Shown piece by piece: positions 41,556 to 56,538 of a stretch of 64,000 bases of DNA. The number at the start of each line of letters is the position of its first letter. Position 1 is the stretch's first letter. Position numbers and translations under genes: made by a program. Under the pieces are notes generated by a model that worked only from the letters and a program-made list of their open reading frames with translations, made no database searches and had not been told where the DNA came from. The stretch spans positions 248,001 to 312,000 of the forward strand of contig NZ_VOEJ01000002.1 of the NCBI RefSeq assembly GCF_007846085.1. The letters run 5' to 3'. Source of the DNA: Mucilaginibacter pallidiroseus. GTDB lineage: Bacteria > Bacteroidota > Bacteroidia > Sphingobacteriales > Sphingobacteriaceae.

Positions 41556-41594
41556 AACAAGAGCGCCCGTTTTTTTAACGGGCGCTCTTGTTTG
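41556..41594. terminator. Bidirectional terminator
   Basis: AAACAAGAGCGCCCGTT and its reverse complement form a long stem with a short T-rich loop between the convergent PAS and M56 genes. Confidence 0.85.
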
Positions 41595-41614: not shown

Positions 41615-43576
41615 TTACAGTTTGAATTTAGCATTTTTGGTTTCAACCAAAACAACGCCGTTTAAGCCCTTAGCTCCATATTTCAAAATTGCATTCTTAT
41701 CCTTTATTACGCTAATGCTTTTGATGTCATTAGGATTGATTCCCTCAATACTTGCTGTTTCTTTTCCGTTAAGTATGTAAAGCGGCGCAAACTCGCCGTT
41801 CTTATTTCCGCTGATAATAACCGTATTTTTTTTGCCGTCTGCGGTATCAATAGTGCTTGCCGTAAATGCGAATGACTGATTTGTAGCGGGCACTTTGCCA
41901 ACCCGTTGTACTGGTTTACCGTTCGCTTCTGCTAATGAGAAAGTTATAGGTACAGTATATTGCACCCTAACCGGCTTACCACTTTGCATACCTGGCTTCC
42001 ATTTAGGCGAAGCGGCTAAAACCCTTACTGCCTCTTCGTCCGTACCGCTGCCAACACTCCGTACAACCTTCATGTTGCTAAGGGAACCGTCCTTCTCAAC
42101 AACAAATGTTATAATAACCCTACCCTGCACATGATTATCTCGTGCCTGTTGTGGATAGTTTAAGTTTGTGACAATGTATTTTTCAAATGCCTGTTGCCCG
42201 CCGGGAAAACCAGGCGATTGCTCAACTGCGGAAAATACGGCTCCGCTTGCAGGCGATGCAGCCTTGTCAACATTATTGTCGGCGCTTAATGCAAATTGGA
42301 TAGGTACGGCATATTGAACCCTAACCTTGTGTTTGTTTTGAATGCCCGGCTGCCATTTAGGCGATGCTTTCATTACACGCAGTGCCTCGGCATCTATATT
42401 TCGGCTAACGCTTTTCGCAACTTTAATATCAGATAACGAACCGTCTGCTTCAACAACAAACGTAAGTACCACCCTACCCTGTACGTTATTTTCACGCTCG
42501 GCTTTTGGGTATTTTATGTTTTTGGCTAAGAACTTACCAAATGCCTCGTCGCCACCCGGAAACTCTGGCGCATGCTCAACCTCTGTAAAAAGCTCCCTGC
42601 CCGGCACCGTGTCAAGCTCGATTTCTTGAATGCTTTTGTCGGCGGCAATCTCCTTGTTTGTTGCGTCCTTAGCATTTGCATCAGGTATTACTGATTGCGC
42701 GGTACGGTCAAACACCTCATCGGCCCTGTCATGAATAGCAACAACAGCCTTACTGTTATTTATTGTGGCTGATGATAAGATCAGCATCAGCATAAATAAT
42801 GGTGCAGACAAGCCGTATTTAATCAGCTTGATGCGCTGCGATTTATTCTTCTGTAACATAACAATACGTTTTTTTAATAAGCTATGGTTAAAGAAAGGGT
42901 TGATGAGGCTATGGGCTGGTGCATTAAAAGTTTGGTTAAGCAGCAGCATCGCATAGTCGGCTTTGCTTGCGCCGGCTTTTACTGCGTAGCTATCGGCAAT
43001 GTACTCGTGTATGTGCTTTATGGCGTAGCGGTACAGATAAACAACAGGGTTAAACCAATTAATAATCATCACAGCTTCAATAATCAATATATCTGCCGAA
43101 TGCCACTGGCGTGCATGCACTTCCTCATGCTGCTTAATCACATCGTTACCTTCCTCATGCTCGGTTAAGCGAATGGTGCTGAAGAAAGAATAAGAAACCT
43201 TTGACGGGCGCTTGATCATCTGCTTCACCTCGAACAACTGCCAAACCAGCCTAATGGCGAGGAATACCGCACCGGCTGCATATAGCAGGGTAACTATTTC
43301 GCCAATGGTTATGGGGTTATTTTTAAGCGGTGCAAAGGTGACAATCATATCCGGCGACGTTGTGCTGTATATGGTTGTTTGCATTTGCTTTGTTATAAAA
43401 AGATCCTGCACCCAGCGGGCCTGTACCAGCGGGATGATGAACGATAGCGTAGCCGCACCCACCAAATAAATGCGGTTTAATTGAAAAAATGTTTCCCGGC
43501 GGAGCAATAGTGCATAGAACCCGAAAAACAATATCAGGTATATGTTTACCAATAATAAATAATGCCACCAGGTCAT
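41615..43576 (-). CDS. BlaR1-type M56 peptidase fused to two TonB C-terminal domains and a TonB-plug-like tail
   Basis: The 653-residue protein starts with membrane helices (about 3-21, 34-55, 93-112) and an M56 metallopeptidase carrying HEEVH (H150, E151, H154). A fourth helix lies near 255-272. Two TonB C-terminal domains follow at about 340-430 and 455-548, each starting PGFPGG/PEFPGG and containing VQGRVxxTFVVExDGSLS. The tail (about 595-653) has INPNDIKSISVIKDKNAILKYGAKG, which resembles a TonB-receptor plug. M56 proteins sense envelope stress and relieve BlaI-type repression by proteolysis. The gene lies 2 bp downstream of blaI. Confidence 0.85.
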   Translation of the reverse strand: MTWWHYLLLVNIYLILFFGFYALLLRRETFFQLNRIYLVGAATLSFIIPLVQARWVQDLFITKQMQTTIYSTTSPDMIVTFAPLKNNPITIGEIVTLLYAAGAVFLAIRLVWQLFEVKQMIKRPSKVSYSFFSTIRLTEHEEGNDVIKQHEEVHARQWHSADILIIEAVMIINWFNPVVYLYRYAIKHIHEYIADSYAVKAGASKADYAMLLLNQTFNAPAHSLINPFFNHSLLKKRIVMLQKNKSQRIKLIKYGLSAPLFMLMLILSSATINNSKAVVAIHDRADEVFDRTAQSVIPDANAKDATNKEIAADKSIQEIELDTVPGRELFTEVEHAPEFPGGDEAFGKFLAKNIKYPKAERENNVQGRVVLTFVVEADGSLSDIKVAKSVSRNIDAEALRVMKASPKWQPGIQNKHKVRVQYAVPIQFALSADNNVDKAASPASGAVFSAVEQSPGFPGGQQAFEKYIVTNLNYPQQARDNHVQGRVIITFVVEKDGSLSNMKVVRSVGSGTDEEAVRVLAASPKWKPGMQSGKPVRVQYTVPITFSLAEANGKPVQRVGKVPATNQSFAFTASTIDTADGKKNTVIISGNKNGEFAPLYILNGKETASIEGINPNDIKSISVIKDKNAILKYGAKGLNGVVLVETKNAKFKL

Positions 43577-43950: not shown

Positions 43951-44010
43951 TTGAAATACAATTGTTTGTTCTAATAATTATCTAAGGTAGAAGATGTATT
44001 TCATAATAAC

Positions 44011-44026
44011 AACTAAATATTTAGTT
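44011..44026. promoter_or_regulatory. 16-bp perfect palindrome, candidate BlaI operator
   Basis: AACTAAATATTTAGTT is self-complementary over 16 bp and lies in the gap between divergent blaI (start 43950) and the MBL/beta-CASP gene (start 44084). A weaker ACAATTGT palindrome lies at about 43960. Assignment to BlaI is by position only. Confidence 0.45.
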
Positions 44027-44083
44027 TTGTTTAAAATAAACTTTATCTATGCAGCTTGGTTTCCTATCACAACCAATTCACAA

Positions 44084-45487
44084 ATGGAGATTATTTTTCA
44101 CGGCGCTGCCCGTAATGTAACCGGCAGCAAACACCTTTTAAAACTCGAAAACGGCACTACTATATTGCTCGACTGCGGCATGTTCCAAGGCTTGGGCGAA
44201 CGCACCGAAGGCATGAATGAGCATTTTGGTTTCCAGCCAAAAACTGTCGACTATCTTATCTTATCGCACGCACACATAGATCATTGTGGACTGATACCCC
44301 GTTTGGTTAAAGAGGGCTTTGAAGGCCAGATATTTTGCACACCTGCCACAATGGACCTTGCACGTATCCTATTAATGGATGCTGCCAAAATACAAACGCA
44401 GGATACCGAATATAGTAACAAAAGCCGTGAGGGTAAGGGCCTCGAGCTTGAAGTACCGCTGTTTGATGAAGATGATGCCATTGCTGCGTTAGGATTATTT
44501 AAAACAGTAGAGTACCACGAGGAATATCATCTTAACCCTGATTTGAAGTTTAAATTTACAGACGCAGGGCATATCCTTGGAAGCGCGGCCGTGCACATCA
44601 AGATAACCGAGAACAATAAGGACTTTTACATAACCTTTAGCGGTGATGTTGGCCGCTACGGCGACTTATTACTTAAAAGCCCTCAAACGTTCCCGCAGGC
44701 TGATTATATCTTACTGGAATCGACCTATGGTGACAGCCTGCACAAAGACGCCGGTTCCATTGAAGACGCCTTGCTGGAAATTATAACTGAAACTTGTGAG
44801 CGGAAGCGCGGCAAATTAATTATACCGGCTTTCAGCGTTGGCCGTACGCAGGAATTGCTTTATGCTCTCAACGCGCTTGAGCTAAAGGGTAAACTCCCGG
44901 ATGTAGCTTACTACGTAGATAGCCCCCTATCGGCACAGGCAACGGAAGTTTTAAAAAACCACCCGGAAGTATATAACAACGGCGTTAAAGAGGTATTAAA
45001 AATAGATGATGATCCGTTTGGCTTTAAAGGCTTAAGGTTTGTTGAGTCAACAGCCGAATCAATTGCTTTGAACGATGATGCAAGGCCTTGCGTTATCATT
45101 TCATCATCGGGCATGGCCGAGGCCGGACGTGTGAAGCACCATATAAAAAACAACATCGGCAATCAAAAAAACACCATACTGATGGTGGGCTATGCCGAGC
45201 CAAGTTCATTAGGTGGCCGCCTTGCCCGGGGCGAAAAAGAGGTTTACATTTTTGGCGATCAGTACCAGGTAAATGCCGAAGTACGCTCCTTAAAAAGCAT
45301 GAGTGCCCACGGCGACTATGAAGACCTACTTCACTTTATTTCATGCCAGGATCCGGCTGTAGTAAAAAAGATTTTCCTGGTACATGGCGAGTATGAGGTA
45401 CAACAAAGCTTTGCGGAGCGGCTAAAAGAAAATGGGTTCCAAAATGTCGAAATTCCTTACCAGCATGAAAAGGTAGTACTGGAATAG
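44084..45487 (+). CDS. MBL-fold/beta-CASP RNA-specificity nuclease-like protein
   Basis: From the ATG at 44084 the product is 467 residues starting MEIIFHGAARNVTGSKHLL. An earlier ATG at 43994 would put the candidate operator inside the gene. The metallo-beta-lactamase motif HAHIDHCGL, a GHILGSAAVHI segment and FSGDVGR supply metal ligands. A beta-CASP domain follows (ILLESTYGDSLHK, IPAFSVGRTQELLYAL), then the RNA-specificity domain (SSSGMAEAGRVKHHIKN, SAHGDYEDLL). This is the CPSF73/YSH1-like bacterial family of RNA-processing exonucleases. The target is unknown. Confidence 0.92.
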   Translation: MEIIFHGAARNVTGSKHLLKLENGTTILLDCGMFQGLGERTEGMNEHFGFQPKTVDYLILSHAHIDHCGLIPRLVKEGFEGQIFCTPATMDLARILLMDAAKIQTQDTEYSNKSREGKGLELEVPLFDEDDAIAALGLFKTVEYHEEYHLNPDLKFKFTDAGHILGSAAVHIKITENNKDFYITFSGDVGRYGDLLLKSPQTFPQADYILLESTYGDSLHKDAGSIEDALLEIITETCERKRGKLIIPAFSVGRTQELLYALNALELKGKLPDVAYYVDSPLSAQATEVLKNHPEVYNNGVKEVLKIDDDPFGFKGLRFVESTAESIALNDDARPCVIISSSGMAEAGRVKHHIKNNIGNQKNTILMVGYAEPSSLGGRLARGEKEVYIFGDQYQVNAEVRSLKSMSAHGDYEDLLHFISCQDPAVVKKIFLVHGEYEVQQSFAERLKENGFQNVEIPYQHEKVVLE

Positions 45488-51796: not shown

Positions 51797-54244
51797 ATGT
51801 TTAAACGATTTGCCTGGTGCATGGTAGCTGCAATTAGCAGCCTGGCCATATATAGCTTTGTTATTGCCGACGACCCTATTGCCAAAATACGGCAGCAGCT
51901 TGATAAATGGACCGACAAGCATCCTATTGAAAAGGCTTATGTACATTTTGATAAGCCTTATTATGCTGCAGGCGATGATATATGGCTAAAGGTTTACGTA
52001 ACAAGCGGCAGCTATAACCAGGCAACTACCATAAGCGGCATAGTCAACGTCGACCTTATTGATGCCCGCGATTCCATCAAACGATCCTTAAAACTCCAGC
52101 TTAAAAACGGTGTAGCCTGGGGGGATATAGCTTTGCCCGATACCCTTAGTGCCGGCAATTACCGCCTGCGCGCCTATACCAATTACATGCGCAATGCTGG
52201 CGGCGAATACTTTTTTGAAAAAGCAATTCTCATCATCAATGCTGTTGGCAAGATATACGCCAAACAACCTGTTGCAGGCGCTGTAGGTACGCAGGTAGCT
52301 ACAGCTGCCAATAAAATTGATATCCAGTTTTTCCCTGAAGGCGGCAGCCTGGTTGCTGGTGTACCCACAAAAGTTGCGTTTAAGGCTGTAAGTAGCTCCG
52401 GCCTCGGTGCCGATGTAAGCGGAACCATAATAAGCTCGCAAGGCAGGCAGGTGGCAACCTTTAGCAGTACGCACCTGGGTATGGGCTATTTTACCATTAC
52501 CCCGCAAGCCAGCGTTACCTACACGGCTAACGTAAGCACGGCGGACGACATGCAAACAACTGCTGCATTGCCTAAAGTCGCTTCATCCGGTTACGTACTC
52601 AACATCATGGATCAAGGCAACGCTATACAGGTTAAAGTATCCGGCAGCAATAATTTGCTAAATCAAAACGCTTCGCTTACCCTGGTGGCGCAAACGGCAG
52701 GTAAAATATATTATGCAGGCGTCATAAAACCGGGTACTGTCACTATCGAAAAAAATAAGTTTCCTACCGGTATAGCGCAGTTTACGCTGTTCTCGGCAAC
52801 GGGCGAACCTTTAAATGAACGACTGGTATTCATCAAAAACGCAGACAGGCTGAATCTTGCGTTGTCTACAGATAAGCCAACATACTCACCTCGCGAGAGA
52901 GTAAGACTTAATTTATCTGCCTTTAGAACGGGACAAAAACCTGCCGCTGGGAGTTTCTCGGTATCTGTTATAAACGAAACAAAAGTGCCGGTAGATGAAA
53001 GCAACGAGAACAGCATTTTTGCAAGTTTGCTGCTTACATCAGATATTAAAGGCTACGTTGAGCAACCTGCATATTATTTTAATAACCCGAACGAAAAGAC
53101 AGCGGCAGATCTGGATTTGTTGATGATAACACAAGGCTATCGAAGATTCGATTGGAAGCAGGTATTAAATAGCAGCGCAGCTACAGATACATTTACTCCC
53201 GAGCAATCATTAAAAGTGTCGGGCACAATCACTACAGACAGTGGCAAGCCTGTACCAAACGGCAAAGTACAGCTAATTGATTTCGACGATGCTGCAAATG
53301 TATTGGATACCGTTACAGATGCGCAGGGGCGCTTTAATTTTGACAACCTTGAATTTGCCGATAGCGTGCGTTTTATTGTGCAGGCGCGCAACGCAAAAAA
53401 CAAACGCGATGTAGTGATCCACCTCGACTCTATTGCCCCCGCGCCTACCAATAGCAGCCATGTAAAACCCGACTTTGAAATTACAAGCAGCGACAAATTA
53501 TCCGTTTATGCGGAAAGCAGTAAGGCACTTTACTCGGCACAACTAAAATATGGGTTAGGTAACCATGTGATATCATTACGCGAAGTGGTGATCCGTGAGA
53601 AAAAACAGGCGCTAAAACACTCGGCCAATTTAAACGGACCAGGCAACGCGGACCAGGTAATTTACGGTAAAGATCTAAGACTGATGGGCTGCATTCGCAT
53701 AGGCGATTGCTTACAGGGGCGCATACTGGGTGTGGTGTTCAGGAACGGCATCCCCTTCTCTACCCGTGGCGGCGGCCCCATGCAGGTTATTATTGATGGT
53801 GTATATGTTGATGCAAGCTTTATAAACAGCATCAACAATAATGATGTACAATCTATTGAAGTTTTACGAAACGTGGGCACCATAGGCGTTTACGGCGGCA
53901 GGGCAGGCAGCGGAGTATTGCTCATCACCACCAAACGCGGCGACGAGCCCGAAGAGTATACTGGCCCTGTTAAAGGTCGCGGGATTAAGCCATATTACCC
54001 TAAGGGGTTATATAAAGCGCGTACTTTTTACTCGCCTGCCTACAATAAGAGCGGCGTAAACAAAGAAATTGCCGATCTGCGCACCACTATTTACTGGAAC
54101 CCCGATGTACAGCCCGGCACAAATGGTAAAGCCATACTTGAATATTTTAACGCAGGTTCAAAGGGCACCTATCGCGTAATTGCCGAAGGTATTGACAGCG
54201 ATGGTAACATAGCCAGGAAAGTTTACCGTTACAGGGTTGAGTAA
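51797..54244 (+). CDS. Large secreted protein with macroglobulin-like domains and a TonB-plug domain
   Basis: The 815-residue protein has a signal peptide (about residues 1-24) and then KAYVHFDKPYYAAGDDIWLKVYV, a macroglobulin MG2-like strand set typical of Bacteroidota plug proteins. Beta-sandwich regions follow up to about 480, then a carboxypeptidase-regulatory-like segment (VSGTITTDSGKPVPNGKVQLID). A TonB-receptor plug domain lies at about 620-715 (LQGRILGVVFRNGIPFSTRGG, NNNDVQSIEVLRN, YGGRAGSGVLLITTK). It has no room for a 22-strand barrel. Probably periplasmic or outer-membrane-associated; role unknown. Confidence 0.85.
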   Translation: MFKRFAWCMVAAISSLAIYSFVIADDPIAKIRQQLDKWTDKHPIEKAYVHFDKPYYAAGDDIWLKVYVTSGSYNQATTISGIVNVDLIDARDSIKRSLKLQLKNGVAWGDIALPDTLSAGNYRLRAYTNYMRNAGGEYFFEKAILIINAVGKIYAKQPVAGAVGTQVATAANKIDIQFFPEGGSLVAGVPTKVAFKAVSSSGLGADVSGTIISSQGRQVATFSSTHLGMGYFTITPQASVTYTANVSTADDMQTTAALPKVASSGYVLNIMDQGNAIQVKVSGSNNLLNQNASLTLVAQTAGKIYYAGVIKPGTVTIEKNKFPTGIAQFTLFSATGEPLNERLVFIKNADRLNLALSTDKPTYSPRERVRLNLSAFRTGQKPAAGSFSVSVINETKVPVDESNENSIFASLLLTSDIKGYVEQPAYYFNNPNEKTAADLDLLMITQGYRRFDWKQVLNSSAATDTFTPEQSLKVSGTITTDSGKPVPNGKVQLIDFDDAANVLDTVTDAQGRFNFDNLEFADSVRFIVQARNAKNKRDVVIHLDSIAPAPTNSSHVKPDFEITSSDKLSVYAESSKALYSAQLKYGLGNHVISLREVVIREKKQALKHSANLNGPGNADQVIYGKDLRLMGCIRIGDCLQGRILGVVFRNGIPFSTRGGGPMQVIIDGVYVDASFINSINNNDVQSIEVLRNVGTIGVYGGRAGSGVLLITTKRGDEPEEYTGPVKGRGIKPYYPKGLYKARTFYSPAYNKSGVNKEIADLRTTIYWNPDVQPGTNGKAILEYFNAGSKGTYRVIAEGIDSDGNIARKVYRYRVE

Positions 54245-55278: not shown

Positions 55279-56538
55279 ATGGTTTTCCCGCATTTAGTTT
55301 TAGATGACCGCAGAGCGAAATCAAATGGAACGTACCCGATAGTTATCCGGGTAACTCACAATCGTAGAACCGCAGCATTTCCAGTAGGTATCTCGGTAAA
55401 AAAGGAACATTGGGACGAACACAATTGTACGTTGCTCAAATCACATCCTAATTATAAAAGTCTGCATACTGCTATAAACAACGCTTATCACAAAGTACAG
55501 AAGTCCACAGAAGAATTATTAAACAACCAGCAGTTTACTTTAAAGGCGTTAAAAGAGAAAATTAGAGTACAGCCGGTAATTGAAGTTGAAGCTACCAAGC
55601 TGCTTACTTTTAATGAATATGCTAACCGGCTAATAAACGACCTATACCAGAATAATAAAGTAGGGAATGCCATAGTTTACCAAACAGCAGTAAACCGCCT
55701 CATATCGTTCGCTAACTTTACCGAATTGACGTTTGAGCAAGTAAATTATCGCCTACTTGAAAACTTTAAGAACAAGCTGGTTAGCGATGGTGTAAAACCA
55801 AATACCGTAAGCAACTATTTCCGCACACTTCGGGCCATCTTCAATAAAGCTATAAAAGAAAAGCTGGTGAGCAGGGACGCTTATTACTTTACTGATATTG
55901 CATTTAAGCCTGAACGCACGGCCAAACGTTCAATAAGTAAGGAAGCGGTAATAAAATTTGTAAACTACAGTCCTGAAACCAGTAAACAGGAGTGCAATGC
56001 AAAAGATTATTTCATTTTAAGTTTTTCGCTAATAGGCATATCCTTTACAGACCTTGCGTATCTAAAGCCATCAAATATTAAAGCAGGTCGTTTGGTTTAT
56101 AAGCGGCGCAAAACTGGCAGAACTTACGACATTAAGCTAACCACCTCAGCTGTAGCAATTTTGAAAAACTTTGAAGATGTAACCAGCGGATATTTATTGC
56201 CCATACTTCCAAAGGCTATTAAAGAAGACAGCTTACAGGCTAAAAATATTATTTTACAATGGATAAAGACCACTAACAAGTATTTGAAAAAAATATCCGG
56301 CAACCTTAAAATTGGTAAAGTTACCACTTATGTCGCCCGGCATACTTGGGCTACCTTAGCTAAACGGATGGGATACTCAAACGAATTAATTGCTGAGGCG
56401 ATGGGGCACCAGTACGGGAACCGGACAACTGCAATTTACTTGGATGATTTTGAACAGCATGTCATTGATAATTTAAACAGTGCGATACAAGAATTTGTAA
56501 CAAAAGCAAATGACTCTTTCTTAAAAGTGGGGCGGTAA
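55279..56538 (+). CDS. Tyrosine recombinase / integrase
   Basis: The 419-residue protein has an arm-binding-like N-terminus (FPHLVLDDRRAKSNGTYPIVIR, VTHNRRTAAFPVGISVKKEHWD), a SAM-like core-binding domain (about 105-210) and a catalytic domain. The catalytic Arg II lies in TTYVARHTWATLAKR, the box III His in EAMGHQYGNRT, and the nucleophile Tyr in AIYLDD. At box I, where Arg is usual, the sequence is LIGISFTDLAYL without Arg, as I recall for one Bacteroidota subfamily. It sits 128 bp from tRNA-Val and is presumably the island's own integrase. Confidence 0.92.
   Translation: MVFPHLVLDDRRAKSNGTYPIVIRVTHNRRTAAFPVGISVKKEHWDEHNCTLLKSHPNYKSLHTAINNAYHKVQKSTEELLNNQQFTLKALKEKIRVQPVIEVEATKLLTFNEYANRLINDLYQNNKVGNAIVYQTAVNRLISFANFTELTFEQVNYRLLENFKNKLVSDGVKPNTVSNYFRTLRAIFNKAIKEKLVSRDAYYFTDIAFKPERTAKRSISKEAVIKFVNYSPETSKQECNAKDYFILSFSLIGISFTDLAYLKPSNIKAGRLVYKRRKTGRTYDIKLTTSAVAILKNFEDVTSGYLLPILPKAIKEDSLQAKNIILQWIKTTNKYLKKISGNLKIGKVTTYVARHTWATLAKRMGYSNELIAEAMGHQYGNRTTAIYLDDFEQHVIDNLNSAIQEFVTKANDSFLKVGR

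Follow-up and report, generated by a model that had tools for sequence, protein, structure and literature searches.

An M56 membrane protease with TonB-type and SusC-type ectodomain modules, paired with BlaI in Mucilaginibacter pallidiroseus, and a candidate regulon of outer membrane genes

Introduction

In the BlaR1/MecR1 and BlaI/MecI systems of staphylococci (MEROPS family M56), a membrane metalloprotease with an HExxH motif stands beside a Penicillinase_R repressor, and PMC7593790 describes the BlaR1 mechanism as an antibiotic-sensing route through protease and repressor. The same source also describes a route from receptor to transcription, which works through an ECF sigma factor with its anti-sigma factor and regulated proteolysis.

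The locus described here lies in a 64,000-nucleotide stretch of the Mucilaginibacter pallidiroseus genome, the whole of which is called the window. It resembles the staphylococcal systems in its pairing of protease and repressor genes, in the fold of the protease and in having a palindrome ahead of the operon, but the sensor ectodomain consists of two TonB C-terminal (TonB_C) domains and half of a plug, no beta-lactamase-like domain having been found there, and the candidate targets are envelope genes, with no beta-lactamase among the named families. With the energy transducer of the ExbB/ExbD/TonB system it shares closely related C-terminal domains of matching fold, whereas its N-terminus is an M56 protease instead of a TonB anchor and its operon partner is blaI. 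The tail has its homologue in SusC/RagA TonB-dependent receptors, where the corresponding segment forms the C-terminal half of the plug; the protein differs from these receptors in lacking the barrel, the first half of the plug and a TonB-box motif. Like cell-surface signalling (a TonB-dependent transducer, a FecR-like anti-sigma factor and an ECF sigma factor), the locus would couple receptors to transcription by regulated proteolysis, but a repressor and an M56 protease would replace the sigma and anti-sigma factors, and the receptor-side parts would reside in an inner-membrane protein.

BlaI of Bacteroidetes is mentioned in existing papers, among them PMC4026382 and PMC8986121, and M56-BlaI pairs, TonB_C domains and plug domains are each already known. 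For their combination, and for the modular spread, palindrome and gene set reported below, no precedent was found among the matches listed in the literature, where coverage seldom extended to subscription journals.

Results

Protease and TonB_C domains

The original prediction was of a single chain joining a BlaR1-type protease, two TonB C-terminal domains and a plug-like end, and the first two of these parts were confirmed (Table 1). The 653-aa open reading frame matched the Pfam profiles Peptidase_M56, with 33.2 bits where 31 is the cut-off, and TonB_C (1.7e-40, over two stretches). In the predicted structure, residues 3-232 matched S. aureus BlaR1 (8exs; Z 13.1, rmsd 4.9, 200 residues aligned) and residues 334-432 a TonB C-terminal domain (6i97_D; Z 10.7, rmsd 1.9, 89 aligned), and the top of the PDB list for the M56 part consisted of five BlaR1 entries. 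H150, E151 and H154 were invariant across 63 aligned sequences, and the HExxH motif was kept in all 80 relatives. By profile, motif, fold and adjacent repressor gene, the protein is a BlaR1-type antirepressor protease, which presumably cleaves BlaI.

Table 1. Features of the blaI-M56 locus, in window coordinates
Feature	Position	Strand	Basis
Terminator-like inverted repeat followed by T-rich sequence	41559..41589	-	judged by eye
BlaR1-like M56 membrane protease, 653 aa; ectodomain of two TonB_C domains and a half-plug	41615..43576	-	ORF, Pfam, model, PDB comparison
Half-plug tail, residues 585-650	41627..41824	-	NCBIfam, own-genome matches, PDB profile, Foldseek
TonB_C copy 2, residues 471-548	41933..42166	-	Pfam; likeness to ExbD-linked TonB
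TonB_C copy 1, residues 353-430	42287..42520	-	Pfam; likeness to ExbD-linked TonB
Membrane and protease part, residues 1-274	42755..43576	-	model helices; BlaR1 match
Zinc-protease motif HEEVH, residues 150-154	43115..43129	-	alignment
blaI (Penicillinase_R repressor), 123 aa	43579..43950	-	Pfam, 2.7e-30
MBL-fold/Beta-Casp/RMMBL gene, divergent	43994..45487	+	Pfam
Candidate BlaI operator AACTAAATATTTAGTT, perfect 16-bp palindrome	44011..44026	.	upstream-region comparison

The AlphaFold2 model, for which the window protein was aligned with 62 of its 80 relatives, had a mean pLDDT of 78.8 and a pTM of 0.45, so that the relative placement of the domains is not confident. Values for the TonB_C copies exceeded 90, bar one block of ten at 87, and those for tail residues 601-650 were 84-89, while stretches such as 298-323, 433-443 and 551-591 fell below 50. 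A modelled helix at residues 249-274 precedes the ectodomain.

A search of Pfam at E≤1 returned only TonB_C, M56 and Plug, with no penicillin-binding sensor domain, and the reading of the protein as a beta-lactam sensor was rejected on this ground. There was likewise no TonB-type anchor at the N-terminus, which is occupied by the M56 part, and comparison with the TonB of the same genome by BLASTP gave good E-values only over the C-terminal domains. The gene for that TonB (L008) adjoins an ExbD gene (Pfam 4.1e-18). Its C-terminal domain was 62% identical to TonB_C copy 1 over 106 aa and 64% identical to copy 2 over 104 aa; when the comparison was confined to the domains, the copies were 65% and 66% identical to TonB and 60% to each other. 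In E. coli TonB, the last strand of this domain pairs with the TonB box, and the corresponding strand reads VRVQYSVP in the ExbD-linked TonB and VRVQYAVP and VRVQYTVP in the two sensor copies. Judged by sequence, the copies are close relatives of the C-terminal domain of the ExbD-linked TonB, and putative binders of TonB boxes.

The tail as half of a SusC/RagA plug

The plug-like tail had been predicted at about residues 595-653. The likeness to a plug was borne out, as homology to that of SusC/RagA proteins, but the tail corresponds to the C-terminal half alone, and a whole plug is not present. The Pfam Plug match (20.5 bits at residues 576-641) lay under the cut-off of 23.9 and is weak by itself, but the identity of the tail is backed by two NCBIfam SusC/RagA models, TIGR04056 (5.2e-13, residues 593-650) and the signature TIGR04057 (1.8e-8), both of which scored under their whole-protein cut-offs. 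The alignment covered positions 38-107 of the Plug profile, which identifies the tail as the C-terminal half; neither a barrel nor the first half of the plug was found in the M56 protein by Pfam.

When used alone as a query, the tail gave 24 other matches in its own genome, the best at 8.4e-13 and 42% identity. One of these was an M56 paralogue (L006), and the other 23 lay in open frames of 802-1192 aa, so that the genome holds some twenty SusC-type plugs resembling the tail. Alignment with 18 of the matches revealed a shared block of SusC form, PLYVVDG...INPNDIESISVLKD...YGxxGxNGVILITTK. A profile of 59 tails, searched at E≤0.01, retrieved 20 distinct PDB sequences, every one named as a TonB-dependent receptor; the best was a SusC (1.8e-20), and chains of SusC and RagA scored about 1e-20. 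The plug motif was retained in the tails of 58 relatives, which were 24-51% identical to that of the window protein.

Structural comparison pointed in the same direction. In the full model, residues 585-650 matched the SusC Bt1763 (6zlt_B) with Z 4.6, rmsd 3.6, 65 residues aligned and 37% identity, a score that is weak alone and counts only together with the sequence match. A model of the tail by itself, from an alignment of 59 sequences (the window protein and 58 of the 62 tailed relatives), had a pLDDT of 79.6 and a pTM of 0.62. Its 29 best Foldseek rows were TonB-dependent receptors or their complexes, none with an E-value below 0.001, and VIA-align gave a modest score against 6zlt_B (Z 5.0, rmsd 2.7, 70 aligned). 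The fold predicted for the tail is thus that of a plug's second half, with the sequence profile providing stronger evidence of homology than the structural match. A failure to fold in this way, which had been named as grounds for dropping the original prediction, was not seen in the models. A chance likeness to plugs was rejected on the combined NCBIfam, own-genome, PDB profile and Foldseek results.

The blaI operon and a candidate operator

A gap of 2 bp separates blaI from the M56 gene that follows it, and a blaI gene was upstream of M56 in 77 of the 80 relatives; in two of the three others (L016 and L017), the M56 start lies 42 bases from the edge of the locus. The terminator-like repeat, which was missing from a simple computed scan, stands just past the M56 stop. 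No sigma/anti-sigma pair was present at the locus, where the pair is blaI-M56 and the immediate neighbours are the MBL gene and a PAS gene. The start of the MBL gene that is conserved among relatives, as inferred from N-termini, is at 44084, and this would put the palindrome between the MBL gene and blaI.

The palindrome, AACTAAATATTTAGTT, lies 60 bp ahead of the blaI ATG. In the form AACTAAA-N2-TTTAGTT it was exact in 25 of 78 blaI upstream regions and had one mismatch in 28 more; the resulting 53 of 78 compares with 0.15 expected from 20 rounds of mononucleotide shuffling. The distance from palindrome to start codon ranged from 16 to 161 bp, although these upstream regions are related and the 53 matches are therefore not independent events. 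The form AACTAA-N4-TTAGTT occurred at 4 exact sites in the 4.25-Mb genome, against 1 for the reversed pattern, and at 141 sites against 38 across 31 genomes of the genus. It was absent from two of the 31, and in G003 it fell below the control (1 site against 8).

A shorter form, ACTA-N6-TAGT, was found upstream of 8 of 21 blaI genes of other Bacteroidia (a count that omits a 22nd, L202), leaving 13 without it, and seven of the eight carried it in two or three copies. As a marker on its own this form was rejected as too loose (36 sites against 186 for the control). Sites of the type AACTA...TAGTT precede two BlaI genes in the M. pallidiroseus genome, so that a given target may belong to either BlaI, and the blaI of L005 is preceded by three tandem copies of AACTA-N6-TAGTT. 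We infer from this distribution that the palindrome is a BlaI binding site, and treat it as a candidate operator.

Relatives and modular spread

Genome contigs were scanned with peptides taken from the query, and 406 relatives were found, of which 80 loci, mostly named Mucilaginibacter, were kept. These are akin to each other, and the share of them carrying TonB_C is inflated, since TonB_C peptides were among those used in the scan. In the 81 proteins (the window protein and its relatives), TonB_C domains numbered one to three and tails none to two, with a tail in 63. The commonest arrangements were one TonB_C with one tail (30 proteins), two with one (28), two without a tail (10) and one without a tail (6); rarer were three TonB_C without a tail (2), three with two tails (2), one with two (2) and two with two (1). 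Among the 18 tailless proteins, L047 continues past the edge of its locus, and four (L036, L049, L052 and L076) have a tail in a different frame directly downstream, accompanied in three of the four by an out-of-frame TonB_C. These early-stopping frames may be pseudogenes, and so cases of loss, or may reflect sequencing errors.

In other Bacteroidia, 20 regions yielded 22 M56 frames. Five had the tail without TonB_C (L190, L200, L203, one of L204 and one of L205), L193 had it weakly, seven had TonB_C without the tail (L192, L196, L197, L198, L199, L206 and L208), nine had neither and none had both. The occurrence of the modules singly, or not at all, points to modular variety, and a one-off fusion was rejected on the basis of the varied architectures in both sets. 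L204 and L205 are tandem blaI-M56 arrays, in each of which one M56 protein ends in a half-plug and the other in a long charged repeat tail.

The M. pallidiroseus genome itself carries four M56 genes, every one with a blaI nearby: that of the window, L006 with two half-plug stretches, L005 with two weaker TonB_C matches, and L007 with neither module. In a family search, M56 was above the cut-off in 31 of 60 genomes of a phylum sample and in 8 of 45 of a class sample.

Genes marked by the palindrome

Sites of the palindrome were gathered into 61 clusters, 58 among the matches listed in 13 other genomes and 3 from the M. pallidiroseus genome. None of these 61 listed clusters fell inside a long open reading frame (more than 150 aa, extending 120 bp beyond both sides), and at 55 of them the gene that follows belongs to a recurring family, of which there are seven: BlaI or the neighbouring MBL gene (13), TPR proteins (12), CarboxypepD_reg/OMP_b-brl_3 barrels (10), CarboxypepD_reg_2 (7), FtsX/MacB (6), GLPGLI (5) and DUF6624 (2). 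Within the first family, BlaI was at 12 of the listed clusters and MBL at 10, nine of the latter being shared with BlaI and one without it. CarboxypepD_reg-type genes follow 17 of the 61 listed clusters, ten in the barrel family, and the six clusters without a recurring family were L141, L143, L153, L175, L179 and L181. Families were named from scanned representatives, which included three BlaI and both DUF6624 proteins, and for MBL genes outside the M. pallidiroseus genome the name rests on their resemblance to the one in the window.

Five complete barrel-type open reading frames, of 799-940 aa, were inspected for domains. OMP_b-brl_3 was present in four, TonB_dep_Rec was above the cut-off in two and Plug in one, and the fifth (L245) had CarboxypepD_reg matches only. 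In L150, L151 and L180 there is a 4-bp overlap between a GLPGLI gene and a CarboxypepD_reg-type gene. The GLPGLI protein at L102:2131-3036 (minus strand) has a C-terminal extension, IDPSRIASINVNK, which by eye resembles the start of the plug motif.

The four exact sites in the M. pallidiroseus genome stand ahead of blaI, a TPR gene, a MacB-like permease gene and a GLPGLI gene. Sites with up to one mismatch were not in excess (19, including the 4 exact, against 42 for the control), and a large regulon drawn from one-mismatch sites was rejected for this reason. Eleven of the 15 one-mismatch sites, picked by eye, were inspected, and three precede families of the gene set. One lies 28 bp before the L240 barrel gene (OMP_b-brl_3), after which comes a GLPGLI gene; another lies 30 bp before a CarboxypepD_reg_2 gene, and the third 48 bp before a further GLPGLI gene. 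Given the lack of excess, these three rest on the identity of the genes downstream. Of the others, L212 and L218 lie within long open reading frames, L210 within one of 127 aa, and L217 within one of 102 aa while also standing 2 bp ahead of another gene; L211, L213, L214 and L219 precede genes outside the set. Taken as a whole, the sequence comparisons make a BlaI regulon of outer membrane genes a well-supported proposal.

Behind one palindrome, in G002, is a gene for a secreted-looking protein of 212 aa (L220:4363-5001, minus strand, the same as L179:1322-1960, minus strand). It comprises one TonB_C and one half-plug tail, making it a soluble twin to what the sensor carries outside the membrane. 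A search for stand-alone proteins of this kind gave, among the matches listed, one clear case and one possible (a 214-aa frame, 37% identity).

TonB-box-like motifs

A SusC-type TonB-box-like pattern matched 4 of 105 M56 proteins (1 of 81 in the set of relatives, 3 of 24 others) and none of the 105 when reversed. The pattern scan did not find the motif in the window protein, nor in any candidate target protein longer than 300 aa; as it matched only 6 of the 18 SusC proteins of the same genome, its absence from the window protein is weak evidence. In those 6 of 18, the motifs (LNEVVVTGY, LSEVVVVGYGTQ) lie 72-75 residues ahead of the half-plug. Two other M56 paralogues of the genome have TonB-box-like motifs in their ectodomains, and that at L005:3657-5990 (plus strand) carries LNEIVVTGYGTG. 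The L005 M56 protein has a SusC-type TonB-box-like motif, GLNEIVVTGYGTG, between its two TonB_C stretches.

Discussion

The architecture, the homology of the parts, the operon, the palindrome and the gene set, as observed by sequence analysis and structure prediction, bear on what this gene pair might do. The reading that we prefer, at a probability of about 45% and so a little short of even, is that the BlaI-M56 pair controls outer membrane genes, and senses TonB-linked proteins by docking through its TonB_C domains and half-plug. BlaI would occupy the AACTAA-N4-TTAGTT palindromes and repress its own operon together with the outer membrane gene set. By analogy with BlaR1 (PMC7593790), the M56 part would be embedded in the inner membrane, its protease facing the cytoplasm, and on a periplasmic signal it would cut or otherwise inactivate BlaI, freeing the palindromes and switching the gene set on. 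The ectodomain, probably periplasmic, would dock on the periplasmic face of TonB-linked proteins of the outer membrane, where the TonB_C domains may vie with TonB for the TonB boxes or substitute for it there, and a receptor-like surface may be offered by the half-plug. The sensor might then report the number of receptors, or of TonB contacts, that are free or disturbed.

The original prediction had the chain contacting TonB-dependent receptors and linking their occupancy to relief of BlaI repression. Contact of the ectodomain with receptors is plausible, and is made more likely by the kinship of the TonB_C domains to the cell's own TonB and by the palindromes before CarboxypepD_reg/OMP_b-brl_3 barrel genes; that receptor occupancy is the signal can only be conjectured. 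Docking on TonB boxes or plugs is favoured because the domains are still close to those of working TonB and SusC proteins, and because the candidate targets include barrels of the TonB-linked type. The soluble twin in G002 and the TonB-box-like motifs in M56 proteins point the same way, and agree with sensing of TonB-linked proteins. Weighing against this reading are the low pTM of the full model, the rarity of TonB-box-like motifs among M56 proteins (4 of 105, the window protein not being one of them), the failure to find the motif in candidate targets longer than 300 aa, the tail's lack of a TonB box, a barrel and the first half of a plug, and the genomes in which palindromes were absent or fewer than in the control.

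A wider and more doubtful proposal is that the BlaR1-like proteases of Bacteroidota keep a general watch on the TonB system, their ectodomains of TonB C-terminal domains, half-plugs and TonB boxes vying for TonB docking surfaces and so setting the levels of receptors and helper proteins through BlaI. If true, this would be a route from receptor to gene apart from ECF sigma/FecR signalling. If BlaI-M56 pairs with TonB-derived sensors do a similar job, a widespread and unexplained gene pair of the Bacteroidota would gain a function.

The main rival to receptor docking, which we consider rather unlikely, accepts that the BlaI-M56 regulon is real and takes TonB_C and the half-plug as general periplasmic binding modules, sensing damage to peptidoglycan or to the envelope such as that caused by antimicrobials or misfolded barrels. 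Such a role is compatible with a gene set that counts a permease of the MacB/FtsX type and a TPR protein among its members, and with the many M56 proteins of Bacteroidia that have TonB_C alone, the half-plug alone or neither, and the BlaR1 route responds to an antibiotic, as described in PMC7593790. General binding modules, however, do not sit easily with TonB_C copies that are as near to the ExbD-linked TonB as to each other, or with the 17 of 61 listed clusters before CarboxypepD_reg-type genes, the barrel family among them.

Docking could also occur within the chain, in cis: the half-plug, or a TonB box in the case of paralogues, would rest on TonB_C and keep the protease off until displaced by a competitor such as free TonB or a receptor. 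Both modules share one chain in 63 of the 81 proteins, the L005 motif lies between TonB_C stretches, three further M56 proteins contain such a motif, and in SusC proteins the motif can precede the half-plug at a near-constant distance; but half-plugs exist without TonB_C, no TonB-box-like motif was found in the window protein, and the model (pTM 0.45) gives no confident placement of one domain on another, and we judge this arrangement improbable. That TonB_C and the half-plug are evolutionary passengers with little role in signalling, recombined from the abundant TonB and SusC genes, is very improbable, for although donor genes are plentiful in the genome, copy numbers vary and four relatives have the tail out of frame directly after M56 (by loss or sequencing error), the plug motif is kept in 58 tails despite identities as low as 24%, half-plug tails recur on M56 proteins of other Bacteroidia, and G002 retains both modules as a separate secreted-looking protein behind a palindrome.

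Elsewhere in the window, an 815-aa protein encoded at 51797-54244 (plus strand) carries MG2, a CarboxypepD_reg match below the threshold and, over residues 620-707, a Plug domain, and with no barrel profile it represents a second barrel-less plug. A phage-type integrase gene at 55279-56538 (plus strand) possibly marks the edge of a mobile element.
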